A stretch of DNA of 38,400 bases from Planctomycetota bacterium (GTDB lineage: Bacteria > Planctomycetota > UBA1135 > GCA-002686595), in NCBI GenBank assembly GCA_016872715.1, contig VGZD01000027.1, positions 1-38,400 of the forward strand, in the 5' to 3' direction. Shown piece by piece: positions 1 through 34,772 of the stretch. Numbering within the stretch: the stretch's first letter is position 1; each line of letters starts with the position of its first letter. The notes under the pieces are model-generated. The model made no database searches. It saw only the letters and a list, made by a program, of their open reading frames with translations, and was not told where the DNA came from. A program made the position numbers and the translations under genes.

Positions 1-1312
1 CGCCAGGCGCGGTGCAGACGCCGGCGCTGAGCTTGGTGACGCCCAGCGGCAACAGTGCATCGCGCAAGCGCGAGGACTCGCGCGTCGTGAGCGTGAGGTC
101 GGCGTCGGGAAACTCGCGCCGCAGGTACAGGAACGCCTTGGCGAAGTCATCGTCGTCGACGACTTGCGCGACACGGTAGTCGCACTGCGCGTCGACGGAC
201 TGCACGCGCGGTAGCGAAAAGCCCAGCCGCACGAACGGTGCGAGCTCGCGCAGGCGCCGCGCGTGCTCGACGAGCGCCGCAAGGTCGTGCGCGAGTGGCG
301 CGAGGCCCAGCAAGACGCCCAAGCCCAGCGCCTCGAAACCCGCGGCCAGCGCGCGCTCGGCCGCCTCCAGCCGATGGGCCATGTCGCGCTTGGGGCCACT
401 GCGATGCACGGCGCGGTACGCGGCCGCGTCGTAGGTCTCTTGGTAGAGGTGGTAACCGACCGCGCCGGCCTCGCGCAGGCGGCGAAACTGCTCGAGCGAG
501 AGCGCGCCGAGGTTGAGGTGAATGCGCTCGATCTCCGTGCGCGAGAGCACGGCTTCGACGATGCGGCAGAGCTGGTCGATGAAGGCGTCGTGCGGGACCT
601 CGCCGGTGACGAGATCGAGCGCGCGATGGCCCGCGGCGGCGAGCGCGCGCGCCTCGGCGAGCGCCGCGTCGACGGACAGGTGCACGCGGCTCGCCGACGC
701 GCTCCTGCGAAAGCCGCAGTAGGCGCAGTCGTTCAGGCAGGCATTGGAGATGTACAGCGGCGCGAACAGGCGCACCTGATCGCGAAAGTAGAGCGCGCGG
801 GCCTGCTCGATCTGCGGGCGCAGCTCCGTCGCCAACTCCGCCAGCGGACGCGCGAGGAACTCGGTCACCGAGGGCTGACGCGCCAGCGCGCTGCGGCCCA
901 AGCGCATGGCGATGCGCGAGTTGCTCAAGTCGGCCGCCACGCGTTGGTCCTCGAGCTCGCGCTCGACGCGGCGGATCAGCTCGAGCACAGCCTGCGTCAG
1001 GGACTCGGCTTGCTGCGCGTCCAGCGAGTCGAAGCCGATCTCGGCCGTGCAAGCGACGTCCGCTCGCGCTGCGCGGCTCAGACGGCGGGCCGCGACCTCG
1101 GCCAGCGCAGCCTCGCGCCGCGCCGACGCGGGCGCGCTCGTCGCTTCGATCCGCCCAGCCCGCCAGCGCGCGTGCGCGGTGGCGCCGACGGGTCGCACGC
1201 CAGCACGCAAGAGGCAGACGAGAGCCGCGCCGTCGCGCTCGACGCGCAGCGACGAGGGCCACGGCGCGGCGGACGAGGACTCGAGCGCGAGCACGGGCGC
1301 CACATCGGTCAC
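1..1312 (-). CDS. ThiH/HydG-like radical SAM enzyme (3' end outside window)
   Basis: Predicted radical SAM enzyme of the ThiH/HydG (tyrosine lyase) family. The frame contains CLNDCAYCGF, the CX3CX2C [4Fe-4S]/SAM motif, preceded by PLYISN. Further on are DLVTGE and YHLYQETYD, which match the ThiH barrel. ThiH cleaves tyrosine to dehydroglycine for the thiamine thiazole; HydG matures [FeFe]-hydrogenase. No hydrogenase gene is visible, so a ThiH-type role is the default. The GTG start at 1312 lies 7 bp after the preceding gene, with GGTGAG six bases upstream. From this start about 190 residues precede the cysteine motif, roughly 100 more than E. coli ThiH; that extension is not recognised. The C-terminus runs off the left edge, so the ThiH versus HydG question (the HydG C-terminal cysteines) cannot be settled here. 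Confidence 0.8.
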   Translation of the reverse strand, partial: MTDVAPVLALESSSAAPWPSSLRVERDGAALVCLLRAGVRPVGATAHARWRAGRIEATSAPASARREAALAEVAARRLSRAARADVACTAEIGFDSLDAQQAESLTQAVLELIRRVERELEDQRVAADLSNSRIAMRLGRSALARQPSVTEFLARPLAELATELRPQIEQARALYFRDQVRLFAPLYISNACLNDCAYCGFRRSASASRVHLSVDAALAEARALAAAGHRALDLVTGEVPHDAFIDQLCRIVEAVLSRTEIERIHLNLGALSLEQFRRLREAGAVGYHLYQETYDAAAYRAVHRSGPKRDMAHRLEAAERALAAGFEALGLGVLLGLAPLAHDLAALVEHARRLRELAPFVRLGFSLPRVQSVDAQCDYRVAQVVDDDDFAKAFLYLRREFPDADLTLTTRESSRLRDALLPLGVTKLSAGVCTAPG

Positions 1313-1319
1313 GGCACGC

Positions 1320-3575
1320 TCACCAAGGCGGCGGCGCGCGACGCGCGAAGATGCCCATCCCTCCCGTGTCCGTCTTCAGATCGAGGTCGAGGTGGGTCAT
1401 GCCCCACCCGGGCAGATCGACCCACACGTGCTCCTGCAGGTAGCAACGCGACCCGGGCTGCGACGGCATGGTGAGCGGCACGTCGCCGACGTGCACGAGG
1501 CCGCGCGCGTCGGGCGAGAACAGCGTGACGGGAACGACCGCGCTGGCCATTCCCAGCAGTGCCTGCGCCGCGAAGCCCTCGACGAGCACTTGCTCACTCG
1601 CCGCGCCGGGTTGGAACTGCGCCGGAGCGAGGCCCAGAGCATCGAGCCTCAACAGGCGCTCGAAACGCTCGAGGTCGTACACGCTGACGTAGTTCTCGAA
1701 CGTGTTGCTGACGTAGGCCAGATAGGAGACGCGCGAGGGATCGCCGGTGTCCTTGCGGCCATAGGAGATGCCATGGCTCCCCAGACCGGCTGGGAAGGTG
1801 TAGATGCCCTGCGGCAAGCCGCTCGCGTCGAGCGGGATGATGTTGACGTTGAACGAGGCCTTGTTGCACACGGTCATGAAGCGGCCGTGGCCGGTCGAGC
1901 CGGGCGGGCTGATGGCGCATTGGATCGGCATGTGCGACCAGCGCACCGGCATGGCCATCATGTCGGTGAGCGCGAGATTCCCCGCCGCGTTGCCCAACGG
2001 TGAGGGCAGCCTGACGCGCGTCAGCCTCTCGGCGCCGTCCGACGCGTCGATCGTATACACGCTGATGTCGTCGGTGCCCGCGTTGTTGGTGTAGCCGCGA
2101 TGGCGCGTCGCGTTGGGATTGCCGGTGTTGAAGATCGAGGCCGCCAGCGGGGAGAGCCCACCCGTGGACGTCGAAGCCACTTCCGCTCCCGTGCCCGTGC
2201 GCGCGTCCGCATCGACCCAGCGGCGCGAAATCGAGTAGAGCGAAGCACTGCCCGGGAGCGTGTTGGCGGTGAGAATGTGGTCGCCGTCGTCGAGGAACCA
2301 CAGACCGTGCGGCGAGAACCCCGGCGGAGCCGTGCGACCGGAAGATTGACCGAGCGCGGGCAGGTTCGGCCGCTGCCAGTTGATCGCCGTGAACGGATCG
2401 AATTCCTGCAGCTTGTTGCTGCCCATCACCGTCACGAACCAGCGATCGGCGCCCGTGGCCGCGTTCAGGCGCCCGGGCGCGGTCATGATGTGCGCGTTGG
2501 CGGCGCCCATGGGCACGTCGCCCAGAATCTGTTTGGAGTTCGCATCGATGATCGTGACCGTCGTGTCGTGCCAGTTCGCGTACACCGCGACGTCGCGGAG
2601 CACGCCCAGGTCGTCGCGCGACGTCCCGATCCAGCCGTTGTGCGGGTTGTTGCCGACGTTGGGGATGTTCGTCGAGGTCCACGTCCGCGTGTCGATCACG
2701 TCGACGGCACCGTTGGGTCCAGATGTGTTCGTGTAGGTCTGCATTCCGACCCACACTTCGCCACGGCCGAGCACCTTGGGCCGAGCGATCGGCAGCTTGC
2801 TGACGTGAGTCAGCGGCGTCGGGTTGCTGTCCGGCGTCACGATCTGCACTTGCATGTACGGGTGCAGCGAGCAGTAGTACTTCCAAGCGCCCGAAGCCAA
2901 GTCGGACAGCTCCAGATAGAAGTAGCCGGTGTTCTGGCTCGTGATGTTGCCCGAGTAGCCGATGAAACCGGTGTCCACACCCAAGCCGAGGTTGCTGACC
3001 GTGTGCCAGGTCTTTCCGCGGTTGATGACCTTGATGTAGTCGCCCGCCGACATCACCACGCGCCGCCGATCGTGGGCGAGGTCGCGGACGTCCGTGTCGT
3101 CATCGCGGAACCACGGTGCTTCGTCGAGGATCTCCAGCACGATCCCGTGGCCGCTGGGCACCGGAGGCGGCGGCACGCCCGTCAGCGGATCCGCTCCTCC
3201 GACCGGCGGCGCGTACACCAGCCAGTCGACGAGCTGATCGAGCTCGGCGTCGCTGATCACTTCGCGCCCGAAGGCCGGCATGCGGTAGTCGAATCCGCCG
3301 ACGAGGTAGGCCCCGTTGCGGACCATGAAGCGCGCGTGATCGGCGACGGCGGGCTGAGGCGAAGCGAGCGCGTAGGCGATGGGCGGCGCCCACGTTCCAG
3401 GATCGACCCAACCCGGTCCGCCTCGTCCGTCGGCACCGTGGCAGGTCGCGCACGAGGCGGCGAAGATCTTGGCCGGCGGGCGCACGGCTTGCTGCGCCAC
3501 GGCCACGGCATCGAGCAGCGCGAGAACGACGATCAGCCGACAGAAAAGCGACGAAAACAAGCGTGAGTGCGTCAT
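1320..3575 (-). CDS. Secreted cytochrome c / type-1 copper / beta-propeller fusion protein
   Basis: A 751-residue predicted periplasmic protein with three parts. (1) A signal peptide (about residues 1-28), then a class I cytochrome c with haem motif CATCH (C42, C45, H46) and a likely axial Met in YRMPAFG (M99). (2) A cupredoxin, about 142-250, with H191 (KTWHTV) and CSLHPYM (C235, H238, M241), the type-1 copper pattern seen in amicyanin and pseudoazurin. (3) A YVTN/NosZ-like beta-propeller, about 260-700, whose blades repeatedly carry His near the inner strand (NPHNG, NAHIM, SPHGLW, WSHMP, GSHGIS). The architecture resembles but does not match cd1 nitrite reductase (cytochrome c plus propeller) or NosZ (propeller plus CuA). 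ATG 3575 is chosen because it starts directly at the signal peptide; a TTG at 3602 is the alternative. It follows the polyferredoxin gene after a 389-bp gap, so it may have its own promoter. Substrate unknown. Confidence 0.8.
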   Translation of the reverse strand: MTHSRLFSSLFCRLIVVLALLDAVAVAQQAVRPPAKIFAASCATCHGADGRGGPGWVDPGTWAPPIAYALASPQPAVADHARFMVRNGAYLVGGFDYRMPAFGREVISDAELDQLVDWLVYAPPVGGADPLTGVPPPPVPSGHGIVLEILDEAPWFRDDDTDVRDLAHDRRRVVMSAGDYIKVINRGKTWHTVSNLGLGVDTGFIGYSGNITSQNTGYFYLELSDLASGAWKYYCSLHPYMQVQIVTPDSNPTPLTHVSKLPIARPKVLGRGEVWVGMQTYTNTSGPNGAVDVIDTRTWTSTNIPNVGNNPHNGWIGTSRDDLGVLRDVAVYANWHDTTVTIIDANSKQILGDVPMGAANAHIMTAPGRLNAATGADRWFVTVMGSNKLQEFDPFTAINWQRPNLPALGQSSGRTAPPGFSPHGLWFLDDGDHILTANTLPGSASLYSISRRWVDADARTGTGAEVASTSTGGLSPLAASIFNTGNPNATRHRGYTNNAGTDDISVYTIDASDGAERLTRVRLPSPLGNAAGNLALTDMMAMPVRWSHMPIQCAISPPGSTGHGRFMTVCNKASFNVNIIPLDASGLPQGIYTFPAGLGSHGISYGRKDTGDPSRVSYLAYVSNTFENYVSVYDLERFERLLRLDALGLAPAQFQPGAASEQVLVEGFAAQALLGMASAVVPVTLFSPDARGLVHVGDVPLTMPSQPGSRCYLQEHVWVDLPGWGMTHLDLDLKTDTGGMGIFARRAPPPW

Positions 3576-3964: not shown

Positions 3965-5929
3965 TCAGCGCGCCGAGCGCAGCAGGTCCTCGACCGCGGC
4001 GACGAGGCGTGGATCGAGCTTGCACGCGGCGTCGAACTCGGTGCGTGCTTGGGACGCGCGGCCCAGAGCGAGCAGCGCGTGACCGAGGTTGAAGCGCGCG
4101 ACGGCGTGCTGTGGAGCGAGCTCGACGGCGGCGCGCAGCTCGACTTCGGCCTGCACGGCGCGGCCCTCTCGCAGCAGGACGAAGCCCAAGTTGTTGCGGA
4201 AGTCGGCCTCGCCCGGCGCCAGCTCGCAGGCGCGCTCGAAGCACTCGCGAGCGCCGCTCCAATCGTCGCGCGCGACGCACGTGGCACCGAGCTCGTAGTG
4301 GACCAACGCCCAGTCCGGCTTGAGTGAGCGCGCGGTGGTGAAGTGCTCCGCGGCGGCCGCGGGCTCCCCTTCCCGCAGCGCCAGCTCGCCGCGCCGCAGG
4401 TGCAGCTCGGCCAGATGCTCGGCCTGATCCTGTCGACCCGCCTCCGGCGTGGGCGTCGAGTCGATGGCGCGCTCGAGCACTTCCGCGGCCTGCGAAGATC
4501 TCCCGCGCGCTAGGTGCACGCGCGCGAGCACGAGCACGGCCTCGCGCAGCTGTGGAACTCGCGCGAGCAGGTCGGTCAGCGTGTTTTCGGCCTCTTCGAG
4601 CTCCCCGCACAGCTCCGCGATTCGCGCGTGGCGCAGCTGCGCCGCGGGCGACTCGAACAGTCCAAACCTGCGCACGGTGTTCGCACTCGCGCGGGCCGCC
4701 GCGAGCCGTTCGGGCTCCAACGCGCCGCCGCGCTTGTCGGCCGCGGCGACAGTGCGCTCGACGGCCAGCTCGTTCCAACGGATCCAACCGCTGTGCGCGG
4801 TCAGTGCCGCGAGCAGCGCACTGACGCCACAGAACGCGACTCCGGCCCTTCGCACGCGCCCGCCCTTGGCGAGCACGATCTTCTGCAGCCGCGCCTCTCG
4901 CCGCCGCATCACGCGCACGCACAGCCACGCCGTGGCGCCCGCGAAGACCCCGAGCGTGAGCGCGACCAGGAAAGGCACGCTGTCGTACAGGCCGCGCGTC
5001 GCGAGGAACGTGGCCAACACGACCACGGCCACGAGCACCTCCTCCGACGCAGTGAGGTCGAACTTGCGCGGCAGGCCGCGCCGGGCGAGCGCAGCTCGAA
5101 AGAGGGGCGGCGTGCTGAAGCGGAACACGATGTTGCCGTCGGGACAGGCGGCCATGCAGTCCAGATCTCGTAGACAGTCCTTGTCGACGATCGCGCCAAA
5201 TTGCGTCAGCTCTCGATGGACTCGGATGTGCGACGTGCAAACCGCCGTGCAGCGGCCGCAGCCCGAGCAATCGCCGCGGGCCACGAGTCGGCCCGGCGCG
5301 ATGCGGTCGGCGAGCGCGAACAGCGCGCCGTACGGGCAGACCGTCGTGCAGAACGAGCGCGAACCGAGCACATACACCGCCAGCGGACCGCAGGCGACGA
5401 ACGTCAACGCGATGATCCAAGGACCAGGCAGATTGCGCCAGAACTCGCTGGTTGCGAGCGATCCCCATCCGGCCGAGTCGGACGCGAAGCGCAGCGTGGG
5501 CAGCCGTCCTTCCTGAACGAAATGCACGAGCAGCGGCGCCGCGAACATGTACGCCATGGCGAGCGTGCCGACCGTGCGCAGCGCACGCGAGCGCAGCGGG
5601 CGGGGCTTGATGCCGAGCTTGCGCAACAGCCAGTGCGAGGCGTCTTGCAGCGCCAGAATGTGGCAGGCCCACGAACAGAAGTAGCGCCCGAAGACGGCTG
5701 TGGCGAGGACGGCGACAGCGAGCAACAAGAAGCCGGCGGTGACGACGCCGAGCGCGAAGGTGTAGACGGCCTCGTTGAACTCCAGCGGGGCCAGCGTTCG
5801 ACCGGCGAGCTTCCAGTGCGCGATGTGCAGACCCGCCGCGACGTGTACTGCGAGCAGCACGAGCGCACGGCGACGCGAGTAGCGTTCCTCGTCGAGGGCG
5901 AGCGGCCGCATCGATCCGCCGGCTTCCAT
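3965..5929 (-). CDS. NapH/NosR-like membrane polyferredoxin with C-terminal TPR domain
   Basis: A 654-residue integral membrane iron-sulfur protein. The N-terminal half has about five membrane segments. It carries the cysteine pairs typical of NapH/NosR/CcoG relatives (FCSWACH near a membrane segment; FCTTVCPYG), then a full ferredoxin motif (CSGCGRCTAVC), then a second motif in which the second Cys is Asp (CLRDLDCMAACP, CX2DX2CX3CP). Two further hydrophobic segments follow. The C-terminal third is tetratricopeptide repeats (for example VHYELGATCVARDDWSGARECFERACELAPG). Family members pass electrons from the quinone pool or cytoplasm to periplasmic reductases; the TPR fusion is unusual and suggests docking of partners. 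The ATG at 5929 is 5 bp after the upstream stop, with GGAAG upstream; ATG 5911 is an alternative. It is translationally linked to the FG-GAP/TPR gene. The partner enzyme is unknown. Confidence 0.85.
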   Translation of the reverse strand: MEAGGSMRPLALDEERYSRRRALVLLAVHVAAGLHIAHWKLAGRTLAPLEFNEAVYTFALGVVTAGFLLLAVAVLATAVFGRYFCSWACHILALQDASHWLLRKLGIKPRPLRSRALRTVGTLAMAYMFAAPLLVHFVQEGRLPTLRFASDSAGWGSLATSEFWRNLPGPWIIALTFVACGPLAVYVLGSRSFCTTVCPYGALFALADRIAPGRLVARGDCSGCGRCTAVCTSHIRVHRELTQFGAIVDKDCLRDLDCMAACPDGNIVFRFSTPPLFRAALARRGLPRKFDLTASEEVLVAVVVLATFLATRGLYDSVPFLVALTLGVFAGATAWLCVRVMRRREARLQKIVLAKGGRVRRAGVAFCGVSALLAALTAHSGWIRWNELAVERTVAAADKRGGALEPERLAAARASANTVRRFGLFESPAAQLRHARIAELCGELEEAENTLTDLLARVPQLREAVLVLARVHLARGRSSQAAEVLERAIDSTPTPEAGRQDQAEHLAELHLRRGELALREGEPAAAAEHFTTARSLKPDWALVHYELGATCVARDDWSGARECFERACELAPGEADFRNNLGFVLLREGRAVQAEVELRAAVELAPQHAVARFNLGHALLALGRASQARTEFDAACKLDPRLVAAVEDLLRSAR

Positions 5930-5934
5930 GCGGC

Positions 5935-8466
5935 TCAACTTCCGCCGTACTCGGCCTGTGGATCCGCGGGCCGTTCGCCCAGCGACTTCCAGCGCTCGAT
6001 CCACGTCCGCGGTGTCGCGTGCAGAGTGTGCAGCAACGCCGCACCCGTGCGCGTGTCGCCCTCGTTCGTCGTGCCCGGCGAGCTCGCGGGAGCGCCAGCG
6101 GCGATCGCGTGCGCCTCGTCGAGCAGGCGCCGCGCCTGCTCGAGGTCGCCGCGCAGCCATGCGCAGCGGCCCTGATGGTAGCGCGCTTCGACCGAGCGCG
6201 GATTGAGCGCCGCAGCCGCGTTGAAGTGCTGTTCGGCACGCTGCGCGTCGCCGAGCAGCAAGGCCGCGAGGCCGAGCTTGACGACCGGCCCGCTGTCCTC
6301 GCGGTTGATGGCGTGGCAGCGCTCGAACGCGCGCTCCGCCTCCTCGAGCGCCGCCTCGTCGCCTCTCTCCAAGAGCAGGCTGCCGATCTGCATCCAGCCC
6401 CGATTCGAAGTCGGGTGATAGAGCACGAGGCGGCGATAGGCGACCAGCGCGGCGTCCATGTCGCCCTGCGTCAGCGCGCAATTCCCAAGGTTGTAGAGGC
6501 AGTCCTCGTGGCTCGGCCAGACTTCGAGCGCGCTCCGGTAGCCCTCGACCGCCTCGTCGATGCGGCCTGCGACGCGTGCCTTGGTCGTCGCGTCGAGCAA
6601 CGCGTAGAAACGCCGCTGCGCCGGCGCGTCCACAGGCCCCGCGAGCGCCGACTCGCGCTTGCCCGGGAGCAGCTCGATCAACGGCGGATGTCCGCGCATC
6701 CACGTGATCAACGTGTCGGCGGGAATGTCCCGCAGGCGCTCCTGCGCTCCGTCGGGCCAGCGCACGACCAGCTCATCGACGCGCGGCGACGTGCCGAGTC
6801 CGAAGGCGATCTCGCCGGTCGCGTGCTGCGACAAGTATGAGCCCTGCGTGTCGAGTTCGCCGATCGAAATCCGCCCGCCCGCGTGCAGCTCCAGCGCCGC
6901 TCCGATCGCAAGTCGATTGCCCACAGGCTGGCGCAAGCGTACGCGCACGCTGCGGCGCGCGTTGCCACCGTCGTTGCGCAGGAGCCTCGGCGAGCCGCCG
7001 TGAGTCGTGACGAGCAGGTCCTCGTCTCCGTCGAGGTCGTAGTCGAAGGTGGCTCCGCCGCGCCCCACGTGCTCCGCGCCAAAAAAATCTCCAGCGGCCG
7101 CACCGAGGTCGAAGTAGCCGCGCTTGCCACCGGCGTTCCAGAACAGCTGGCTCTTCTGCGGCACGAGCGCAGTCGCGTCGTCCTTGCGCGGCAGCGTGCT
7201 GCCGTTGATCACGAACAAGTCGAGCAGGCCGTCGCAGTCGTAGTCGAAAAAGCCCGTCGCCCAGCCGACTCGATCGAGCGTGGCCTGCCCGAGCCCGAAC
7301 CGATCGGCCTGATCCATGAAGGACAGCGGCAGGTCACGCTCACGCTCGATGCCGGGCAGCCGCCGCATGTTCACGTACAGCGCGTTCTCCTGCGCGAGCC
7401 AGTGCGTGACGACGAAGTCGAGGTCGAGGTCGCCGTCGAAGTCCCCGGCGGCGAGCCCCATCGCGCCGCGGTAGTCCCCCACCTGCGCGGTCGCGGTGCG
7501 GTCCTCGAAGCCCCCCGCGGCGGTTCCGATGAAGAAGGCGTTGTCGCTGACGTCGTTGGCGACGTACAGATCGGGACGGCCGTCGCCGCTGAGGTCGGCC
7601 ATGATCGCGCCCAGACTGCGGCCCGCGGGATCCGCGACGCCGAGCTTTTCAGCGACGTCTTCGAACGTGCCGTCGCCGCGGTTGCGCAGCAACAGATTGC
7701 GTTCCGGCGCGTAGGAACTCGGGTTGATGCCCGCGGGGATCGCGAGGTCGTATTGCGACGGTGTCCGCGCGGCGTCGCCCTCGTGCTCGACGAAGCTCAC
7801 GTAGGCACAGACATAGACGTCGAGCGCTCCGTCGCGGTCGAAGTCGCTCACCGCCAACCCGGTGAAGAAGCCGTGGAAGCCACCCAGACCGGCGGCGGCG
7901 GTGACGTCGCGAAAGCGCGCGTCGCCCACGTTTTGGAGCAGCGTGAGCCCACCGTAGCTCGTGACCAGCAGGTCGAGGTCGCCGTCGGAGTCGTAGTCGA
8001 GGAACGCCGCCCCCATGCCGAAGAGCTCGAGGTCCACACCGGCGGAGCGAGCGATGTCGACAAAAGTGCCGTCGCCGCGGTTGCGAAACAGCGCGCAGCG
8101 ACCGCCGCCGCTGCCCTCGGGGTCGAGCGAGCCTGCGGTGTTGACGAGAAATGCGTCGGTCCATCCGTCGCCGTCGACGTCGCCGAGCGCGACGCCCGAG
8201 CCCATGTCCTCGGGCAGGCGATTGGTGCGCGTCGAGGGAAAGTGGCGGAACACGATCTGCGACTGTTCCGTCACGTCCTCGAAGCGAGCGCGCGGCCGGT
8301 CGTCGGGGAGCTTGCGACCGAGGCTGTCGAACAACCCCTCCGCTCCGGCGCCGGGCACGTAGCGCTGCTCGCGTCGACTCCAGCTCCACCACGCGAACAC
8401 CGCCGCGACCGCCACGGCGGCGACCGCGAGCGAACGCCCGCCACGCCCGCGCCGCCACCGTGTCAC
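5935..8466 (-). CDS. FG-GAP/ASPIC-UnbV repeat protein with TPR C-terminus
   Basis: An 843-residue exported protein. A short N-terminal membrane anchor (about residues 10-28) is followed by an FG-GAP/VCBS seven-bladed propeller. Seven calcium-loop-like motifs are visible: DVDGDGWTD, DYDSDGDLD, DFDRDGALD, DLSGDGRPD, DFDGDLDLD, DYDCDGLLD and DYDLDGDED. Next comes an ASPIC/UnbV domain (GSYLSQHATGEIAFGLG, then VRWPDG), then four or five TPRs. Such proteins are common in Planctomycetota and Acidobacteriota and usually act as extracytoplasmic scaffolds; no enzymatic role is known. The GTG start at 8466 shares GTGA with the stop of the cytochrome gene (4-bp overlap), which implies translational coupling. 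Its TPR tail parallels that of the next gene, so the two products may interact. Domain assignment is firm; function is inferred. Confidence 0.85.
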   Translation of the reverse strand: MTRWRRGRGGRSLAVAAVAVAAVFAWWSWSRREQRYVPGAGAEGLFDSLGRKLPDDRPRARFEDVTEQSQIVFRHFPSTRTNRLPEDMGSGVALGDVDGDGWTDAFLVNTAGSLDPEGSGGGRCALFRNRGDGTFVDIARSAGVDLELFGMGAAFLDYDSDGDLDLLVTSYGGLTLLQNVGDARFRDVTAAAGLGGFHGFFTGLAVSDFDRDGALDVYVCAYVSFVEHEGDAARTPSQYDLAIPAGINPSSYAPERNLLLRNRGDGTFEDVAEKLGVADPAGRSLGAIMADLSGDGRPDLYVANDVSDNAFFIGTAAGGFEDRTATAQVGDYRGAMGLAAGDFDGDLDLDFVVTHWLAQENALYVNMRRLPGIERERDLPLSFMDQADRFGLGQATLDRVGWATGFFDYDCDGLLDLFVINGSTLPRKDDATALVPQKSQLFWNAGGKRGYFDLGAAAGDFFGAEHVGRGGATFDYDLDGDEDLLVTTHGGSPRLLRNDGGNARRSVRVRLRQPVGNRLAIGAALELHAGGRISIGELDTQGSYLSQHATGEIAFGLGTSPRVDELVVRWPDGAQERLRDIPADTLITWMRGHPPLIELLPGKRESALAGPVDAPAQRRFYALLDATTKARVAGRIDEAVEGYRSALEVWPSHEDCLYNLGNCALTQGDMDAALVAYRRLVLYHPTSNRGWMQIGSLLLERGDEAALEEAERAFERCHAINREDSGPVVKLGLAALLLGDAQRAEQHFNAAAALNPRSVEARYHQGRCAWLRGDLEQARRLLDEAHAIAAGAPASSPGTTNEGDTRTGAALLHTLHATPRTWIERWKSLGERPADPQAEYGGS

Positions 8467-10562
8467 GACTGGACCTTCACGCTCGCGTTGGCCGTGGACA
8501 GGACCGTGATCGGGCTGGTGACCGTGTTGGACTCCCCGTACATGAAGTTGAGCAGGTACTGGTCGATCTTGCGGTAGTTGAGTCGGGCCTCGATCGTGAG
8601 CACGCCTTCGGCGCCGACCGGTACCGGCACGTCGATGTCGCTCGCCACGGGCAGGTCCGGCACCGCGGCACCCTGCACGCTCGGGCACGCGAACTCGTAA
8701 CTCGCGACCTCCTCCGCGCCGGGGAACAGCGAGCGGCGGAAGCGCACGCCGACCATCTCCCACAGGTTGTGGCGGTCGATCAGGTTGCCGTAGCGATCGA
8801 CGGGCTCGGCCTTGAACATGAACGTCGCCGGCTCGATGAAGTGACGCTCGTCGCGCGCGCCGGAGTGGAACACGACGTTGCCCGAGGGGTCCTTGACCTC
8901 CAGCTCGATCCACGACTGGATGATGTCGAGCGGACCGGTCGGGAAGTCGTGGCCGACCTTGTTGCTGAGCACGCGCACACGCAGCGCGAGGCGCTCGCCG
9001 GCGCGCACGCTCTGCGGCGCCACGATCTCGATCGGCACGGCCGGACCCTTGCTCCAGCGGTCGGCGATTTCTGGGACTTCCAACTCGCCGCGCAGCCAGC
9101 GTTCGACGAGTTGCGCGTGCTCCGCGCCACCCTCGAGCTCCATCGCCACGGGGATGAACTGGTTGGCGCCCAAGAAGCGGTGCGTGCGGTGCTGGCCGTC
9201 CGCCGCGTCCCGGTTGAAGTCGGCTCCGTCGCCGCGCGCGGGATCGTTCGACGCCGTGAGTGGCATGTGGCACTCACGGCACTCGATCGTCTCGGTCGGC
9301 TCACCGGGGTGGTTCCAGCGGCTGTTCTTCCAGTTGTCGTATTGGTTCTGAAGCTGCACCCAACCGACGTCATTGACCTGCTCGTCGATGAACTGCTTGT
9401 GGCAGGCCGCGCAGAACTCGGAGGTCTTGAACATGCGCTTGGAGAGGCTGGCCACGTGCTGGTCTGGGTAGGCGCGCAGCACGAAGTCGCGCACGAAGCG
9501 CGCCACGTCACCGTCCTTGCGCTCCCAGGCGTAGCGCTCGGGTTGGTGGATCACGTAGTTGGCGTTGCCGGCGACGTCGGTCTGCTCGATCGCATGGCAC
9601 GCGAGGCACGAGATGCCCTCGCGGTAACCGGCCAGTCCGGTCAGGTTCTCGACGCCGATGTACTTGGTGCCTGAAAACAGGGAGATCGGGTCGTGGCAAC
9701 CCGCGCAGTAGCGCGTCGAGGTCGCGCCATTTTGCTGCGCCATCAGGTTTTGGATGCCTTGGAAGGCGACGTCCATCGCAGCGTAGCGGTGCGCGCTCGG
9801 CAGCCACTCGCGGTAGATCTCCTCGTGGCATCCGCTCGTTCCGCACGACGCGGAGTCGTCGAACGAGCGCGCGTCGAAGGCGCCGCCGGTGGCCGTCTTC
9901 GCAAGGCTGGGCGCGAACGGCCCCGCGTCGCCGTAGGCGGCCTGCTCGTACTCGGGCGGGAACTCGTTGACGTAGCTCGTCGGTCGCACGACGAGGCACA
10001 GCACGCCGGTCGCGGCGAGGCACAGCGCACACACGCCACCGGCCAAGCGCAGGTGAGCGCGCAACGCACTCAGCACGACGGCCGAGACAGCTTGCAGGTC
10101 GCCACGCCGCTCGCGCGACAGAAGCGATGCGTAGTGCGGGATCAAGAACGCCAGCGTCGCGGGAGTGCTCGCGATGTGGATCCAGCGCCAGCTCGCGTCG
10201 ATGCGCGTGCCCAGCGCGCTCTGCCACGTCAGCACGAGTCCCGAGACGGTGCACACGGCGAGCGCGACCAACGCTGCCCAGCCCGTGAACTTGATCTGGG
10301 TCAGCGGGAACGCCCACCAGACGCGGATGTGGCGGACGCAAAACCACGCCAGCGCCGGGAGCGTGAGCAGTCCGATCAGCGTGTGCGCGACCACCGAGTG
10401 CTCGCTGAACACGTTGAACGGCGCGAGCCAGATCACGAGGCCGCTGACGCTGAGGTACGCGAGCACGCCGGTGACGAGCTTCGACAGGGGGGAAGACCAA
10501 CCCGCCGCGCGCCGTTCTAGGATCGCGCTGCGCTCGTCGTTGACTTGGGGCGAAGTGGACAT
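8463..10562 (-). CDS. Membrane cytochrome b-like / multihaem cytochrome c fusion
   Basis: A 699-residue protein. The N-terminal ~190 residues hold about five membrane helices with scattered His (HSVVAH, CVRHIRVWW, RWIHIA, IPHY) that could ligate b-type haems on a quinol-oxidising module. The periplasmic part has four CXXCH sites (CAGCH, CLACH, CAACH, CRECH) and one CX4CH (CGTSGCH), so up to five c-type haems. It resembles the cytochrome c-554/hydroxylamine-oxidoreductase-like group. The C-terminal beta-sandwich contains NKVGHDFPTG, whose His is a frequent haem ligand in multihaem cytochromes. A plausible role is carrying electrons from membrane quinol to periplasmic acceptors, probably the cytochrome c/cupredoxin protein encoded downstream. 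ATG 10562 is preceded by GAGAG; a TTG at 10625 would extend it by 21 residues. First gene after norR, 215 bp downstream of it. Confidence 0.82.
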   Translation of the reverse strand: MSTSPQVNDERSAILERRAAGWSSPLSKLVTGVLAYLSVSGLVIWLAPFNVFSEHSVVAHTLIGLLTLPALAWFCVRHIRVWWAFPLTQIKFTGWAALVALAVCTVSGLVLTWQSALGTRIDASWRWIHIASTPATLAFLIPHYASLLSRERRGDLQAVSAVVLSALRAHLRLAGGVCALCLAATGVLCLVVRPTSYVNEFPPEYEQAAYGDAGPFAPSLAKTATGGAFDARSFDDSASCGTSGCHEEIYREWLPSAHRYAAMDVAFQGIQNLMAQQNGATSTRYCAGCHDPISLFSGTKYIGVENLTGLAGYREGISCLACHAIEQTDVAGNANYVIHQPERYAWERKDGDVARFVRDFVLRAYPDQHVASLSKRMFKTSEFCAACHKQFIDEQVNDVGWVQLQNQYDNWKNSRWNHPGEPTETIECRECHMPLTASNDPARGDGADFNRDAADGQHRTHRFLGANQFIPVAMELEGGAEHAQLVERWLRGELEVPEIADRWSKGPAVPIEIVAPQSVRAGERLALRVRVLSNKVGHDFPTGPLDIIQSWIELEVKDPSGNVVFHSGARDERHFIEPATFMFKAEPVDRYGNLIDRHNLWEMVGVRFRRSLFPGAEEVASYEFACPSVQGAAVPDLPVASDIDVPVPVGAEGVLTIEARLNYRKIDQYLLNFMYGESNTVTSPITVLSTANASVKVQS

Positions 10563-10777
10563 GCTCGTGCTCTCGAGGCGTGGCGTCGCAACCTCATCGG
10601 CGCGCCGCGGCGCCGAGCCATCCAAGGTTAGACAGCGAATTGGATCCGCTCAGAACTGCGCACTTTTCCGCACGTTTCTACGCACGCTCGCGCGCGGGGC
10701 TCACCGCTACCACGGCAGCGCCTCGTGCACGAAGTGGGCGGCGAGCGTGAGCGCGGATCGCCGCGCGAAGTCCGCGC

Positions 10778-12322
10778 TCAGCGCAGGCCCAGCCGCTTGG
10801 CGAGGTGGTGCAGGTTGCTGCGGTGCAAGCCGAGCGCGCGCGCTGCGGCGGCCCAGTTGCCCGCGTGCACGACCAGCGCACGACGGATGCGTTCGCGTTG
10901 GAATTCGAGCAGCGCTTCGCGCAGCGGCAGATCCGGTGCGACGGACGCGCTCACGCTCGGCGTCGGCTCGGCGGGCGTTTGAGCCTCGGCGCGCAGGTCC
11001 GACAGACGCACGATGACCGTCTCGCCGGCACTCACTCGCCCCAGCGCGCGCAGGATCGCGCGCGAGAGCGCGTTTTCGAGCTCGCGCACGTTGCCGCGCC
11101 ATGGACTGCGGATGAGCTCGTCGCGCGCGTCCGGCGCAATGCGGATCGGACCGGTGCCCAGCCGCCGCCGCGCGCGGTCGGCGAAGTAGCCGGCGAGCAG
11201 CGCGATGTCCTCGGGATGCTCACGCAGCGGTGGAACGCGAATTCGGCACACGTCGAGGCGGTGGCGCAAGTCGGCCCGAAAGCGACCGGCGCGAACTTCG
11301 GCCTCCAGATCGCGGTTGGTGGCGGCGAGCACGCGCACATCGACGCGCTCGGTCCGGTCCGAGCCGACCGGTTGCACCTCGCCATCCTGCAGGACGCGCA
11401 GCAACTTGGGCTGGACGTGCGTCGGCAGCTCGCCGATCTCGTCGAGGAACAGGGTCGCGCCATGGGCTGCGCGGAACTTGCCGGGCCGCGCCTCGAGCGC
11501 GCCCGTGAACGCGCCCTTCACGTGGCCGAACAGCTCGCTCTCGACGATCGACTCCGGCAGCGCGGCGCAGTTGACGTACACCAGCGGCTCGTCGGCCCGC
11601 CGCGACTGTGCGTGCAGCGTGCGCACGACGAGTTCCTTGCCGACGCCCGTCTCGCCCGTGACGAGCACGGGCAGCTCGGTGCCGGCGACTAGTTCGATCT
11701 CGCGCCGCAGCCGCGTCATCGCCGGCCCCTGACCGAGCAGCGTGCCTCCGCGCCGCTCGAGCACATCGCGCACGAGCGCGCGCGCGATCAGGCCCTTGTG
11801 CGTGGCGTGGCGCTCGAGCGCCTCGATCAGATCACTGGTGCGCAACGCCGCGGCGCTGAGGGCGGCGAGCTGTTCGAGAAAGCGCGGATCGACCTGCTCG
11901 AAGGCGCCGGGCGCGAGCGCATCGGCCGTCAGCACGCCGACCAGCTCGCCCTCGACGCGCAGCGGGCAACCCAGACACGAGTGCACGGTGAGGTGCGGCG
12001 CATCGACGACCAAGCCGTCGTAGGGGTCCGGCAAGCTGCTGTCGGAAGGGAACAGCGTCGGAGCGACGGCGCGACAGAGAATCTCGAGCCGCGGATGCTC
12101 GCCACGCACGAAGCGGCGACCGAACACGTCGCTCGAGAGGCCGTGCGCGGCGATCGGGATGAGCACGTCGCCGTCGAGCCGCAGCAAGACCGCAGCGTCG
12201 CACGGCAGCGCGCGCACCACGGCTGCGACCAGCCGGTTCGAACGGTCCTCGGCCGAGAGCGAGGCCGTCATGTCGAGGGCGATCGCGAGCAGGGTGTCGG
12301 CGGGACCGGAGGTTGTCTCCAC
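10778..12322 (-). CDS. norR: NorR, NO-sensing sigma54-dependent transcriptional activator
   Basis: A 514-residue bacterial enhancer-binding protein that aligns along its length with E. coli NorR. The N-terminal GAF domain keeps all residues proposed as the NO-sensing mononuclear iron site: R78, R84, D99 and D102 (LPDPYDG), H114 and C116 (VHSCLG), and D134, each offset by +3 from E. coli. The central AAA+ domain has Walker A GETGVGKE, the sigma54-contact loop GAFTGA and Walker B LFLDEIGE. The C-terminus is a Fis-type helix-turn-helix (NWAAAARALGLHRSNLHHLA). NO binding should relieve GAF repression and switch on a sigma54 promoter. It is divergent from ric, and its GTG start lies inside the first of three NorR-type sites, which suggests autorepression as in E. 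coli. No clear Shine-Dalgarno precedes the GTG. Confidence 0.95.
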   Translation of the reverse strand: METTSGPADTLLAIALDMTASLSAEDRSNRLVAAVVRALPCDAAVLLRLDGDVLIPIAAHGLSSDVFGRRFVRGEHPRLEILCRAVAPTLFPSDSSLPDPYDGLVVDAPHLTVHSCLGCPLRVEGELVGVLTADALAPGAFEQVDPRFLEQLAALSAAALRTSDLIEALERHATHKGLIARALVRDVLERRGGTLLGQGPAMTRLRREIELVAGTELPVLVTGETGVGKELVVRTLHAQSRRADEPLVYVNCAALPESIVESELFGHVKGAFTGALEARPGKFRAAHGATLFLDEIGELPTHVQPKLLRVLQDGEVQPVGSDRTERVDVRVLAATNRDLEAEVRAGRFRADLRHRLDVCRIRVPPLREHPEDIALLAGYFADRARRRLGTGPIRIAPDARDELIRSPWRGNVRELENALSRAILRALGRVSAGETVIVRLSDLRAEAQTPAEPTPSVSASVAPDLPLREALLEFQRERIRRALVVHAGNWAAAARALGLHRSNLHHLAKRLGLR

Positions 12323-12494: not shown

Positions 12495-13175
12495 ATGACC
12501 CATTCCACCGCACCGATCCGACCCGACACCACCCTCGCCGACCTCGCGACCACGCACGCGGGCGCCTCACGCGTCTTCCACCGCCACGGCCTCGACTTCT
12601 GCTGCCACGGCCGCATCTCGCTCGCCAAGGCCTGCGCCGAGCACAAGCTCGACCTCGACGCGTTGCTCTCCGAGCTGCGCGCCGAGGAACAGCGCACCGA
12701 GAGCTTCGAGCAGTGGGACGAGCGCGCGCTGCCGCAGCTCGTCGAGCACCTGCTCGCGAACTTCCACCTTCGCCACCGCGAGGAACTGCCCCGCCTGATC
12801 GCCGCCGCCCGCAAGGTCGAGTCGGTGCACGGCGAGAAGTCGAGCTGCCCCAAGGGCCTCGCCGCGCACCTCGAACACATGGCCGAGGAGCTCGAGGACC
12901 ACATGCAGAAGGAGGAGCAGGTGCTCTTCCCGATGGTGCTCGCGGGCCGCGGCGCGATGGCCGCGATGCCCGTGCAGGTGCTCGAGATGGAGCACAACGA
13001 CCACGCCCTCAACCTGCAACGCTCGCGCGCCCTCGCGCACGGGTTCGTCCCGCCGTCCGAGGCTTGCGGCACTTGGCGCGCCCTCTATCTCGGCCTCGAG
13101 GCGTTCGAGCGCGACGTGATGCAGCACATCCACCTCGAGAACAACGTCCTCTTCCCGCGCACCCTGCGCAGCTGA
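12495..13175 (+). CDS. ric: RIC/YtfE/ScdA/DnrN-family iron-sulfur cluster repair di-iron protein
   Basis: A 226-residue cytoplasmic protein of the repair-of-iron-centres family, which restores Fe-S clusters damaged by NO and oxidative stress. The N-terminal ScdA domain carries the paired cysteines in HGLDFCCHG. The hemerythrin-like four-helix domain supplies di-iron ligands in FHLRHREEL, HLEHMAEELEDHMQKEEQVLFP, HNDHAL and HIHLENNVLFP. Length and motif order match E. coli YtfE (220 residues). GGAG lies 7 bases before the ATG at 12495. It is divergent from norR and preceded by a sigma54 promoter with NorR-type sites, matching the known norR-dnrN/norA pairing in other bacteria. Induction by NO is therefore expected. 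Confidence 0.95.
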   Translation: MTHSTAPIRPDTTLADLATTHAGASRVFHRHGLDFCCHGRISLAKACAEHKLDLDALLSELRAEEQRTESFEQWDERALPQLVEHLLANFHLRHREELPRLIAAARKVESVHGEKSSCPKGLAAHLEHMAEELEDHMQKEEQVLFPMVLAGRGAMAAMPVQVLEMEHNDHALNLQRSRALAHGFVPPSEACGTWRALYLGLEAFERDVMQHIHLENNVLFPRTLRS

Positions 13176-23230: not shown

Positions 23231-23923
23231 TCAGCCTCCATGACCGCGATGGATGCGCGGCCGATTCCAGATCACGACCTGAGCCCTGCGCCACAGGTAA
23301 GGGTTGGGGACGACGAGCACGTGCACCAGGCGCGTGAAGGGGAAGACGCCGATGAGCACGAAGGCGCTGACGATGTGCAGCTTCACGAGCCACGGCAGCG
23401 ACGCGACGAAGCCGACCTCGGGTGACAGGCGCGCGAGCGACCACAGCCAAGGCGTCAGGTTCGTCGCGAACCACGAGCTGCCCCAGCCGTGCACGACCGC
23501 GACACCGATGCCGCTCCCGACCTGCAAGAGGAGCAGCCCGTAGACCAGCCAGTCGAGTCCGGTCGTGACGCGCCGCGCGAGGCGGTTCTCGAGTCGCCGC
23601 ACGACGATGTTGACCAGACCGACCAGCGTCACGAGCGCGAGCGCCAGCCCCGAGAGCTCGAGCGCCATCAGGCGCAGCGGCTCGGCGTTCCAGCTCAGGA
23701 TCGCGCGCGGCGCGACGACCGCGAGGAGGTGCCCCGCCAGCACTCCGAGCACGCCGTAGTGGAACGGCACCGAACCCCAGAAGTGGTGTTGGTTCTCGAG
23801 GAACTGCGAGGAGAGGCTGGAGTAGCTGAAGCCCTTGGTGCGGTAGCGCGAGATGCTGACGAGCAGGAACAGAACCAGCGCGACGTAGGGCAGCACACCG
23901 AACAGAACGAAGTCGTTGATCAC
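23231..23923 (-). CDS. narI: NarI, respiratory nitrate reductase gamma (cytochrome b) subunit
   Basis: A 230-residue membrane cytochrome b with five helices that oxidises quinol and passes electrons to NarH. The haem ligands are all present: H55 and H65 (FWGSVPFHYGVLGVLAGH), H183 (WLVKLHIVSAF) and H201 (TRLVHVLVVP). Their spacing equals E. coli H56/H66/H187/H205. The GTG start overlaps the narJ stop by 4 bp (GTGA). Confidence 0.96.
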   Translation of the reverse strand: MINDFVLFGVLPYVALVLFLLVSISRYRTKGFSYSSLSSQFLENQHHFWGSVPFHYGVLGVLAGHLLAVVAPRAILSWNAEPLRLMALELSGLALALVTLVGLVNIVVRRLENRLARRVTTGLDWLVYGLLLLQVGSGIGVAVVHGWGSSWFATNLTPWLWSLARLSPEVGFVASLPWLVKLHIVSAFVLIGVFPFTRLVHVLVVPNPYLWRRAQVVIWNRPRIHRGHGG

Positions 23924-24462
23924 AGCGAAGCCTCCGTGGCCAGCGCGGGCGCTTCGTGCAGGGCGAGCACCACCAAGACTGCTTCCAAGACGCCGCACCA
24001 GGGACTCTCGATCTCCCGCAGGCCGGACAGGATCTTCTCGCTCGCTTGGCGCGCGTGACCGTGCGCGAGCGCGGCCGCCAAGCCCTCCTCGGCGCGGCCG
24101 AGCAGCGGCAGCACGTGTGCGAGGTGGTCGGGCAGCTCCGTGCGCTCGGGCACGCCGTTGCGCCGCATCAGGTCGCGCAGTCGCACCATCAAGACCCCGC
24201 GCGCGTAATTCTCGCCGAACAGCTGCCAGCCGACCTCGAGCGAGCGTTCGGCGACGTTGTCGAACGTGCGCGTGTAGAGCTCTTCGAGCTCGCCTTCGTC
24301 GCATGCCGCGATCCCGCTCGAGAACGCGCGCAGCGGATCGGCCGCCGCCGGGCAGGCCGAGCTGACCAGTCGCACCGCGGCCGAGTAGCGTTGAGCGTTG
24401 CCCTCGCCGGGGTACGTGAGCAGGCAGGCGAGAGCCTCGTGGACTTGAGGAGTGGGACGCAC
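23920..24462 (-). CDS. narJ: NarJ, nitrate reductase assembly chaperone
   Basis: A 180-residue acidic cytoplasmic protein of the NarJ/TorD family. It includes the hallmark ELEELYTRTFDNV and SLEVGWQLFGENYARG. NarJ binds NarG during molybdenum cofactor insertion and membrane attachment and is not part of the final complex. The GTG start at 24462 is 2 bp after narH, with GGAGGAG five to six bases upstream. Length is slightly below E. coli NarJ. Confidence 0.93.
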   Translation of the reverse strand: MRPTPQVHEALACLLTYPGEGNAQRYSAAVRLVSSACPAAADPLRAFSSGIAACDEGELEELYTRTFDNVAERSLEVGWQLFGENYARGVLMVRLRDLMRRNGVPERTELPDHLAHVLPLLGRAEEGLAAALAHGHARQASEKILSGLREIESPWCGVLEAVLVVLALHEAPALATEASL

Positions 24463-24464
24463 GG

Positions 24465-25952
24465 CTAGCTCCTCCGCGGCGCTTCACGGAAGCCGAAACC
24501 GGCTCCGGCGCGGTGCTCGTGCGGATCGACCATCATCTCCATGGCCGCTTCGCGCTGGAACGGCGGGATGACGAAGCGGTCTTCCCACGTGGCGAGCGTC
24601 GAAAGTCGGTAGATCGCGTCGGCCTGCTCGACCGTGCAGTCCGCTTCGAGCAGCGCCTTCGAAGCTGCCTCCGCCGTCACGTCACCGACCGTCACGTGCC
24701 GCCGCCAGATGCGCACGGCGAGCTGCTTGCGCAGCGCGTAGCGCACCTTGCCCGAGTTGCCCGCGCCGAACAGCTTGCCCATGTATTCGATCGGAGCGCG
24801 GGCCTTCTCGATGTCGGCGAACAGCGCGTCGACGTCGCTTCGCACGAGCGCCCCGTCGCTGACCGACATCACCGGCAAGAGCGGCGGGACGTAGAACAGC
24901 ATCGGGAAGGTGCGGTACTCGACGTGCAGCGGCAGACCGAGCTTCCACTCCTTGGCGAAGCGGTAGACCGGCGAGCGACGCGCCGAGTCGATCACGTTCT
25001 CGCTCACGCCCGAGCGCAACGCGGCCTCGACCACCGCAGGATCGTTCGGATCGAGGATCAACTCGCGCTGGGCATCGACGAGTTCGTTGTCCGGTCGCAG
25101 CGCAGCGGCGCGCATCGCGTCGGCGTCGTACAGCACGTTGCCCAGATAGCGGATGCGGCCGACGCAGCTGTGGAAGCACGCCGGCGCTTGCCCCGACTCC
25201 AGGCGCGGGAAGCACAGGATGCACTTCTCCGACTTGCCCGTGGACCAGTTGTAGTACGTCTTCTTGTACGGGCAGGCCGAGACGCACGCGCGCCACGCAC
25301 GGCAGCGATCCTGATTGATGAGGACGATGCCGTCCTCGCCGCGCTTGTACATCGCGCCCGAGGGACACGAGGCGACGCAGCTAGGGTTGAGGCAGTGGTT
25401 GCAAATGCGCGGCAGGTAGAACATCACCAGCCGCTCGATGGCCTGCATTTGCTGGCGCTGCTGGTCCGAGAGCACGCTCAAATTCGGATCGTTCGCGGCG
25501 TAGACCTTGGAGCCGCCGAGGTCGTCGTCCCAGTTCGGACCGGCCTGAATTTCGATCGGATCGCCGGTGATCATCGAGATCGGGCGCGCGGTGGGCTGGT
25601 CGTCGCCCTCGGGAGCGTTGAACAGCTCCTTGTAGTCGTAGGTCCACGGCTCGTAGTAGTCGTCCATGCTCGGCATGGACGGGTTGTGGAAGATGTTCGG
25701 GACGATCTTCTTCTTGCTGGTCGAGCGCAGCTCGAGCTCCTTGCCGTCGCTCTTCCAGCCGCCCTTGTAGGCCTCCTGATCCTCCCACTTCGTCGGATAG
25801 CCGGTGCCGGGCTTGGTCTCGACGTTGTTCCACCACATGTAGTCGGTGCCCTCGCGATCGGTCCACACGTTCTTGCAGGCGATGCTGCACGTGTGGCACC
25901 CGATGCACTTGTCGAGGTGGAACACCATCGAAATTTGCGAACGAACATCCAT
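24465..25952 (-). CDS. narH: NarH, respiratory nitrate reductase beta (iron-sulfur) subunit
   Basis: A 495-residue cytoplasmic ferredoxin-like subunit with three [4Fe-4S] and one [3Fe-4S] cluster. Motifs: KCIGCHTCSIACKN, CNHCLNPSCVASCP, CRAWRACVSACPYKK (Trp in place of the second Cys marks the [3Fe-4S] site) and KCILCFPR...CFHSCVGR. The ATG at 25952 lies 5 bp after the narG stop. The reading frame stays open upstream into narG, but the conserved NarH N-terminus begins here. Confidence 0.97.
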   Translation of the reverse strand: MDVRSQISMVFHLDKCIGCHTCSIACKNVWTDREGTDYMWWNNVETKPGTGYPTKWEDQEAYKGGWKSDGKELELRSTSKKKIVPNIFHNPSMPSMDDYYEPWTYDYKELFNAPEGDDQPTARPISMITGDPIEIQAGPNWDDDLGGSKVYAANDPNLSVLSDQQRQQMQAIERLVMFYLPRICNHCLNPSCVASCPSGAMYKRGEDGIVLINQDRCRAWRACVSACPYKKTYYNWSTGKSEKCILCFPRLESGQAPACFHSCVGRIRYLGNVLYDADAMRAAALRPDNELVDAQRELILDPNDPAVVEAALRSGVSENVIDSARRSPVYRFAKEWKLGLPLHVEYRTFPMLFYVPPLLPVMSVSDGALVRSDVDALFADIEKARAPIEYMGKLFGAGNSGKVRYALRKQLAVRIWRRHVTVGDVTAEAASKALLEADCTVEQADAIYRLSTLATWEDRFVIPPFQREAAMEMMVDPHEHRAGAGFGFREAPRRS

Positions 25953-25957
25953 GGAAT

Positions 25958-28900: not shown

Positions 28901-29626
28901 CCAGTCGGCCGACTCGTTGACGTCGGTCTGCTCACCCCACGTCTCCGGCGAGGCGTTGGGCAAGTCGCAATACCAGTCGTAGAACGACAGGTTCACGCCG
29001 CCCATCAGTTGCAGCATGCGCGCTCCGGCCGCATAGGAGAGCATCGACATGGCCGGGATCGGCGAGAAGCCGACCACGCGGTCGGGCCCGTGCTTCTTGA
29101 TCGTGTGCACGGCGCTGGCCGCGATGATCTCGAGCACGGTCGACCACGATGCGCGGCGCAGACCGCCCTTGCCGCGCGCGCGCTGGTAGCGCGCTCGCTT
29201 GGCGGGATCGGCCATCAGCATGGCCCAGGCGTCGACCGGGTCTTCGTGCGCCGCGCGCGCCTCGCGCCACAGGTCGAGCAGCGCGCCGCGGATGTAGGGG
29301 TACTTCACCCGCAGCGGGCTGTAGAGATACCACGAGTACGAGATCCCGCGCTGGCAGCCGCGCGGCTCGTAGGGCGGGATTTCCGAGTCGATCACCGGAT
29401 AATCCAGCGCCTGCATCTCCCACGTGACGATTCCGTCCTTGGTGTGGATGTTCCACGAGCAGCCGCCCGTGCAGTTCACGCCGTGCGTGCTGCGCACGAC
29501 GTTGTCGTGCTGCCAGCGGTTGCGATAGAACTCCTCCCAGCCGCGGGTGGCGGGGTCGACGAGGTCTTGGATCCAGGGGTTGTCGCCGTTGTTGCAACGG
29601 CCGTCAAAAGATTGCGACGAGCTCAT
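25958..29626 (-). CDS. narG: NarG, respiratory nitrate reductase alpha (molybdenum) subunit
   Basis: A 1222-residue catalytic subunit reducing nitrate to nitrite on a bis-MGD molybdenum centre. The FS0 cluster ligands are H48, C52, C56 ([12 protein letters not shown]) and C91 (EPRGCQRG). The Mo ligand is D221 in [20 protein letters not shown], equivalent to E. coli D222. No twin-arginine leader is present, so it should be the classical cytoplasm-facing type rather than the exported type of archaea and some planctomycetes. ATG 29626 has GGAGAT about eight bases upstream and overlaps the narC stop by 4 bp. Confidence 0.97.
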
Positions 29627-34317: not shown

Positions 34318-34772
34318 GGACGGAAGCGGACTGGGCAGCCGCCGGGACGGTGATTGTAGCCGCAGAGAAGAGCCGCACGGCGCCGCCGCACGTCACGAGA
34401 CTCGATCCACGCGCCGCGCATGGAAATCTGCGCTCCTGTGCGTAGTTCGGGCGGGCCGTGAGCGCAGAGAGCCTTGAGCGCGCACGCAGCGTCGAGCCAA
34501 CTCGGCCGCAGCTCCATCACGCCATCTCTCGCACATGGGCGAGGAGCGAGCTCGTCTTTGTGCTCCTCGGCGCCGGCGCTGGGCTTTGGAGCTACTTGAC
34601 GGTCTCGCGCGAGGCAACGAACCTCCACACCGCGGTCGACGACGGCCGCCGAGAACGGACATCACCAGCCGGGGGCAGCCGACCACCGAGGATCTGGCCA
34701 CCGCCATCTCGGCGACCGGGATGGCTTGCTCCGCACCGGCATCTCCCCCACTCGCCGCCAACCCACGCATCC
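34318..34772. other. 455-bp region between divergent genes, no supported gene
   Basis: Separates the kinase (minus) from the radical SAM gene (plus). Open frames cross it on both strands, including a plus frame from 34458 that joins the radical SAM gene and encodes a short hydrophobic stretch (ELVFVLLGAGAGLWSYLT). None shows a conserved domain, and the conserved radical SAM part begins only after 34773. A gene remnant or leader peptide cannot be excluded. Confidence 0.4.
34353..34358 (-). promoter_or_regulatory. Possible -10 element of the kinase-regulator operon
   Basis: TACAAT on the minus strand, about 35 bp before the kinase ATG, resembles a sigma70 -10 box. The -35 region at the right distance (GCCGTG) is poor, so this is tentative. 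Confidence 0.3.

Follow-up and report, generated by a model that had tools for sequence, protein, structure and literature searches.

A predicted secreted protein combining haem c, type-1 copper and a propeller with four invariant histidines, encoded near nitrate respiration genes in a planctomycete

Introduction

Copper propellers lined with histidine carry out hard chemistry, namely N2O reduction and thiocyanate oxidation. Thiocyanate dehydrogenase (TcDH), which has a trinuclear copper site, is not known to contain a fused haem or cupredoxin domain, and cytochrome cd1 nitrite reductase is built of eight blades and carries haem d1. In nitrous oxide reductase (NosZ) seven histidines are needed for the CuZ site: replacement of any of six of the ligands leads to the loss of all the metal, and the H382A variant retains a three-copper site that is inactive (PMC11573801). 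TcDH is a seven-bladed propeller whose tunnel copper passes electrons to cytochrome c (PMC9456337). L-NosZ joins a YVTN/lactonase-like propeller to a cupredoxin (PMC11033732). As clade III it was reported only in 2025 (He et al. 2025, cited in PMC13122619).

The 751-residue protein described here resembles these systems and differs from all of them. It stands apart by a different number of candidate ligands, by its own haem and type-1 copper, and by the location near Nar and NXR genes in several phyla. The family may represent a step in the nitrogen cycle that has so far gone uncounted. Surveys based on nirK, nirS and nosZ miss it, since Pfam and NCBIfam hold no model for the whole protein. 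No description of a nitrite enzyme combining type-1 copper with a YVTN propeller was found in the open-access literature.

Results and Discussion

Domain organization of the protein

The DNA analysed (the window) comprises a complete contig, 38,400 bases in length. As judged from its sequence, the gene on the minus strand encodes a real secreted protein in which a haem c domain, a type-1 copper domain and a propeller are placed in one chain (Table 1). That the gene is real is borne out by its orthologues elsewhere, which are 66-68% identical. An alternative longer reading frame begins at 3602 with a TTG start and adds nine residues to the ATG form; residues are counted from the ATG throughout, as in the earlier note.

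Both electron transfer sites proposed in that note were borne out. C42, C45, H46 and M99, at the positions quoted there, make up a class I haem c signature (CxxCH and a distal Met), and the domain is matched by PF13442 (E=7.5e-12) and PF00034 (E=3e-7). These four residues are invariant in 10/10 orthologues and in 13/13 proteins of sub-family A (see below). H191, C235, H238 and M241 make up the type-1 copper signature, His...Cys-x2-His-x2-Met, in an amicyanin-like cupredoxin, and these ligands do not vary in an alignment of 24 proteins. As the C-x2-H-x2-M motif contains a single Cys, the site is not CuA. The cytochrome c was the sole domain found by Pfam, and a phmmer search with the protein gave weak matches to cytochrome c and amicyanin.

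Table 1. Coordinates and assignment of the features of the window
Feature	Positions	Strand	Remarks
Gene of the three-domain protein	1320..3575	minus	ATG at 3575, TGA ending at 1320; 751 aa
Sec-type signal			about residues 1-28 of the 751-aa protein
Haem c domain	3180..3480	minus	about residues 33-132; C42, C45, H46, axial M99; PF13442
Type-1 cupredoxin	2810..3150	minus	about residues 142-255; H191, C235, H238, M241; amicyanin-like
Seven-bladed YVTN propeller	1325..2780	minus	residues 266-748; H312, H362, H423, H601
ThiH/HydG-like radical SAM protein	2..1318	minus	sequence motif; directly downstream, cut by contig end
NapH/MauN-like membrane 4Fe-4S protein fused to TPR	3965..5911	minus	Fer4_5, NapH and TPR matches
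FG-GAP / ASPIC-UnbV and TPR protein, inside respiratory gene cluster	5935..8469	minus	profile matches
Membrane-anchored multihaem cytochrome c	8463..10625	minus	four CxxCH and one Cx4CH (CGTSGCH), N-terminal membrane part
NorR, NO-responsive sigma-54 activator	10778..12322	minus	NF003451, 658 bits (cut-off 476)
RIC/YtfE di-iron repair protein	12495..13175	plus	NF008221, 266 bits (cut-off 254)
NarGHJI, respiratory nitrate reductase	23231..29626	minus	narG 1495 bits; NarH PF14711; NarI PF02665; NarJ from position and sequence alone

Family and distribution

A scan of 199 related genomes yielded three full-length orthologues (G001, G004 and G049), at the identity given above, and two compact relatives at 35-37% identity. 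Among named genomes, further members came from Armatimonadetes, from Candidatus Methylomirabilis and from a contig that bears the label Uhrbacteria. Full-length or partial genes were present in 4/95 Methylomirabilota and 2/251 Armatimonadota genomes. The family thus spreads over Planctomycetota, Armatimonadota, Methylomirabilota and others. Orthologues with all three domains occur in at least three phyla, several of them with nitrogen-oxide neighbours.

The family alignment of 24 proteins (22 complete) comprises sub-families A (13), B (10) and C (1), which are about 27% identical to one another; this is also the mean identity between A and B. The haem c and type-1 ligands are retained in every member of sub-family A. 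Sub-family B is a sister group having the type-1 cupredoxin and the same propeller without the cytochrome. In one Methylomirabilota genome (G548), the minus-strand gene L146 encodes a CuA-like and a type-1 cupredoxin before the same four-His propeller, and may connect the NosZ-like forms with those of type 1.

Four propeller histidines are invariant

According to the earlier note, a His recurs at a comparable place in most blades of the propeller. This holds for H312, H362, H423 and H601, H362 being one residue later in its repeat than the other three. The remaining two of the six listed have drifted: H548 (WSHMP) lies upstream of the shared position, is R in L031 and N in L137, and is gone from the compact and most of the cytochrome-free (B) forms; H563 (TGHGRF) is in an outer turn and is replaced by N or D in compact and most cytochrome-free forms. 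The expected conservation of the listed residues among homologues was thus found for four of the six.

In an alignment of 10 proteins, H312, H362 and H423 are invariant together with the haem and type-1 ligands, and H601 is present in 9/9 sequences that reach that position. All four are invariant in every complete member of the 24-protein family. The 22 complete proteins (A, B and C) share 33 invariant core columns, and the His, Cys and Met among these are exactly eight: H191, C235, H238, M241, H312, H362, H423 and H601. Histidine occupies 6 of the 33 columns as against 12 of the 455 core positions of the 751-residue protein, an enrichment with a hypergeometric value of 6e-5, which is a rough figure. 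The protein contains 20 His in all; those other than the six core His and H46 of haem c, which is kept throughout sub-family A, vary. The propeller thus has four invariant His, while most of the long forms have five. At the level of sequence, both the three-domain protein and the four conserved histidines are solid.

We take the protein for a probable redox enzyme, not described before, that has a second metal site. The main evidence is that, across three sub-families of such low identity, the four propeller His vary no more than the type-1 ligands do; in addition, three-domain orthologues are found across phyla, several beside nitrogen-oxide genes. The alternative, that the protein serves only in electron transfer or binding, with haem c and type-1 copper mounted on a YVTN propeller in which the His have a structural role, is rather unlikely. 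In its favour, many YVTN propellers have no catalytic function, a lone PHG motif can be seen in a plain one (L125 product), and an S-layer propeller is the closest structural match; however, the four His stayed invariant while most other propeller residues changed, and two neighbouring His of the same protein drifted freely.

Model of the propeller

An AlphaFold2 model was built from a 10-sequence alignment (pLDDT 79.5, pTM 0.84). It superseded an earlier AlphaFold model from 6 sequences (pLDDT 60.6), in which the N-terminal domains were too poor. Residues 266-748 form a seven-bladed propeller in the model. Its best match is the S-layer propeller 1l0q (Z 34.4, rmsd 2.4 over 294 residues), the match spanning residues 271-747 at 23% identity. 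Among the matches listed, 1l0q is the closest in fold and sequence, although it is without cofactor or electron-transfer domains. The YVTN repeat model beta_rpt_yvtn scores 65 bits in a compact relative (L028).

In YVTN propellers the first strand of a blade is the innermost. The four His lie near the start of the modelled strands 311-320, 359-370, 422-427 and 600-608, and in that position H312, H362, H423 and H601 should face the mouth of the propeller channel.

Comparison with NosZ, L-NosZ and haem propellers

Clade I and II NosZ share with the protein a seven-bladed propeller, His at the starts of inner strands and a cupredoxin domain. The differences are several. NosZ has seven CuZ His in place of the four (five in most long forms) found here, and its CuA is C-terminal to the propeller, whereas the type-1 copper with its single Cys235 is N-terminal to it. 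Haem c is fused in the present protein and nos genes are not beside its gene. A profile alignment by hhalign placed the SPHG motif of H423 on the SPHG ligand of NosZ, together with the propeller NK motif (E=1.6e-4, probability 51%). The correspondence of blades between NosZ and the present family is ambiguous, as the profile pairs H423 with NosZ blade 5 and counting from the N-terminus gives blade 4. Common ancestry of the two propellers is possible from this local match, though YVTN repeats are easily matched.

Could the protein be a nitrous oxide reductase, kin to NosZ with a reduced cluster? The SPHG alignment would be in keeping with this, as would the several gene-bearing genomes that have a NorB-like protein and are without NosZ. 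The reading is nevertheless very unlikely: the loss of single His abolishes or inactivates CuZ in NosZ (PMC11573801), the H382-type position is Ala or Gly in the family alignment, and CuA is absent. NosD was over the cut-off only in the window's genome (G000), on the contig of that genome's own NosZ, and in none of 13 other genomes. A CuZ site was rejected on the number of His and the lack of CuA, and bearers without NosZ had no NosD over the cut-off either. The analogy to NosZ drawn in the earlier note thus finds no support at the level of the cluster.

L-NosZ is alike in its YVTN/lactonase-like propeller and cupredoxin, and differs in that the type-1 site and the fused haem c belong to the 751-residue protein. 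The L-NosZ model NF052460 did not match the protein at E<=0.1, and two relatives, L028 and L146, scored 44.8 and 93.8 bits against its 700-bit cut-off. The best 50 fold matches listed for the second model (VIA-align) do not include NosZ, TcDH or L-NosZ, an absence which does not imply exclusion; with the first model the NosZ structure 5i5j was at rank 47.

NirS and NirN have a cytochrome c domain followed by a propeller, and they stand high in Foldseek lists. Their propellers have eight blades and not seven, and the Cytochrom_D1 domain PF02239 gave no match in the protein at E<=0.01. A cd1-like haem d1 propeller was rejected for these reasons, so that the other parallel of the earlier note also had to be given up. 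The second metal site foreseen there remains likely on the four invariant His. The NirK models, including TIGR02376, were not matched by the protein, which has one cupredoxin domain in place of the two-cupredoxin type-2 copper core. The RPE65-type domain of carotenoid cleavage oxygenases, four-His iron propellers, is absent from its Pfam matches.

Gene neighbourhood

Besides the genes of Table 1, the window contains an alternative complex III-like cluster, recognised from the order of its genes and a match to NrfD, and two NarK-like transporters, assigned from their sequence and location. A homologue of the NapH/MauN-like TPR protein adjoins the gene in G004, G049 and one Armatimonadota genome (40-43% identity), and is thus retained in two phyla, Planctomycetota and Armatimonadota; it is a probable electron-transfer or maturation partner. 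G049 also keeps the FG-GAP neighbour at 52% and the multihaem cytochrome at 60% identity.

In G004, MoaA and then NXR subunit A (L024 10715-15500), with about 1,680 bits to Kuenenia NXR (7b04), follow within about 5 kb of the sub-family A gene, and a similar subunit A copy is found in G001 (L023 16756-19001). The sub-family B gene of G540 (Methylomirabilota) is inside an NXR cluster (1,636 bits to Kuenenia NXR). Anammox-type NXR therefore adjoins relatives in two phyla.

Working in the opposite direction, the same arrangement of domains would make a dehydrogenase, in which a small anion or amine would be oxidised at the propeller metal and electrons would leave through type-1 copper and haem c. 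Its models are thiocyanate dehydrogenase or the methylamine dehydrogenase/amicyanin/cytochrome c system. The amicyanin-like cupredoxin fits it, as does a neighbour of the NapH/MauN family, to which a maturation factor of methylamine dehydrogenase belongs; TcDH, too, places copper in the tunnel of a seven-bladed propeller and hands electrons to cytochrome c (PMC9456337). The context in the window, however, is nitrate respiration, and methylamine or thiocyanate genes were not recognised in it. Among the rival readings this is the likeliest, though unlikely in itself.

A part in a Mn or Fe oxidation system alongside multicopper oxidases is more improbable still, slightly more so than kinship to NosZ in function. 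In three genomes of Methylomirabilota (L034, L166 and L167) the next protein upstream is a laccase-like multicopper oxidase, and a multicopper oxidase is downstream of a sub-family B gene in G533; none was recognised beside the gene in the Planctomycetota and Armatimonadota loci examined.

A candidate enzyme of nitrogen-oxide respiration

Reduction of a nitrogen oxide is favoured over other functions by context, because NarGHJI, NarK, NorR and RIC are encoded in the window, and NXR and NnrS near relatives. Against it, the neighbour in Methylomirabilota is a laccase-like oxidase instead, and the occurrence of NarH among relatives does not follow that of the gene. Our leading reading, to which we give somewhat less than an even chance, is a three-centre periplasmic or secreted redox enzyme of nitrogen-oxide respiration with a candidate four-His metal site; that it would be a reductase we infer from the gene context. 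The four His would hold a metal, most likely copper, at the mouth of the propeller channel. Electrons would pass from the quinol pool to the NapH-like protein and/or the cytochrome, then to haem c, type-1 copper and the four-His site, where the nitrogen oxide would be reduced.

Nitrite is the best single guess for the substrate, albeit a doubtful one. A bolder form of the proposal is that of a third NO-forming nitrite reductase besides NirS and NirK, with a catalytic copper site on four YVTN His that would receive electrons from haem c and type-1 copper of its own chain; in Methylomirabilota, the sister without cytochrome would act next to NXR of the anammox type. In this full form it is unlikely.

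The genomes compared are all draft bins, and their gene pattern allows a nitrite reductase role without demanding one. In the genome from which the window comes, a canonical NosZ is accompanied by NosD; NirK, NirS and NrfA were not found in this draft genome beyond weak sub-family-level matches. None of the planctomycete bearers G000, G001, G004, G049, G031, G160 and G260 has NirK over the cut-off or a full NirS, and NorB-sized COX1 proteins are found in five of them (G001, G004, G049, G031 and G260), three of which have NrfA. The argument from a missing Nir is weak, because NrfA is present in five bearers (G001, G004, G031, G505 and G809), G507 has NirS, G506 has a NirK-like protein, and the genomes are draft bins. 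Known partial denitrifiers are also without Nir (PMC4689864, abstract). The proposition that all bearers are without a nitrite sink was rejected on the five NrfA. NarH (PF14711) was found in 37/199 genomes and, among bearers, only in G000; it was dropped as a phylogenetic marker for the gene, being uninformative because the model misses NXR-type partners.

Additional observations

The planctomycete relatives G004 and G001 are not recognised as anammox bacteria, yet encode anammox-type periplasmic NXR subunit A. In L032, on contig MGDT01000005.1 labelled Candidatus Uhrbacteria, NnrS adjoins the gene; the occurrence is unexpected there and may be a binning error. In G049, too, a homologue of the ThiH/HydG-like protein comes next after the gene (L025 7690-8718, minus strand), so that two genera have it directly downstream; with 272 bits, the homologue in G049 stays below the cut-off of 380 set for the ThiH model. 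A further radical SAM protein of the window (34458-36050, plus strand) has the look of an anaerobic sulfatase maturase with a SEC-C tail, and a similar one is near the gene in G049 (L025 12945-14171).
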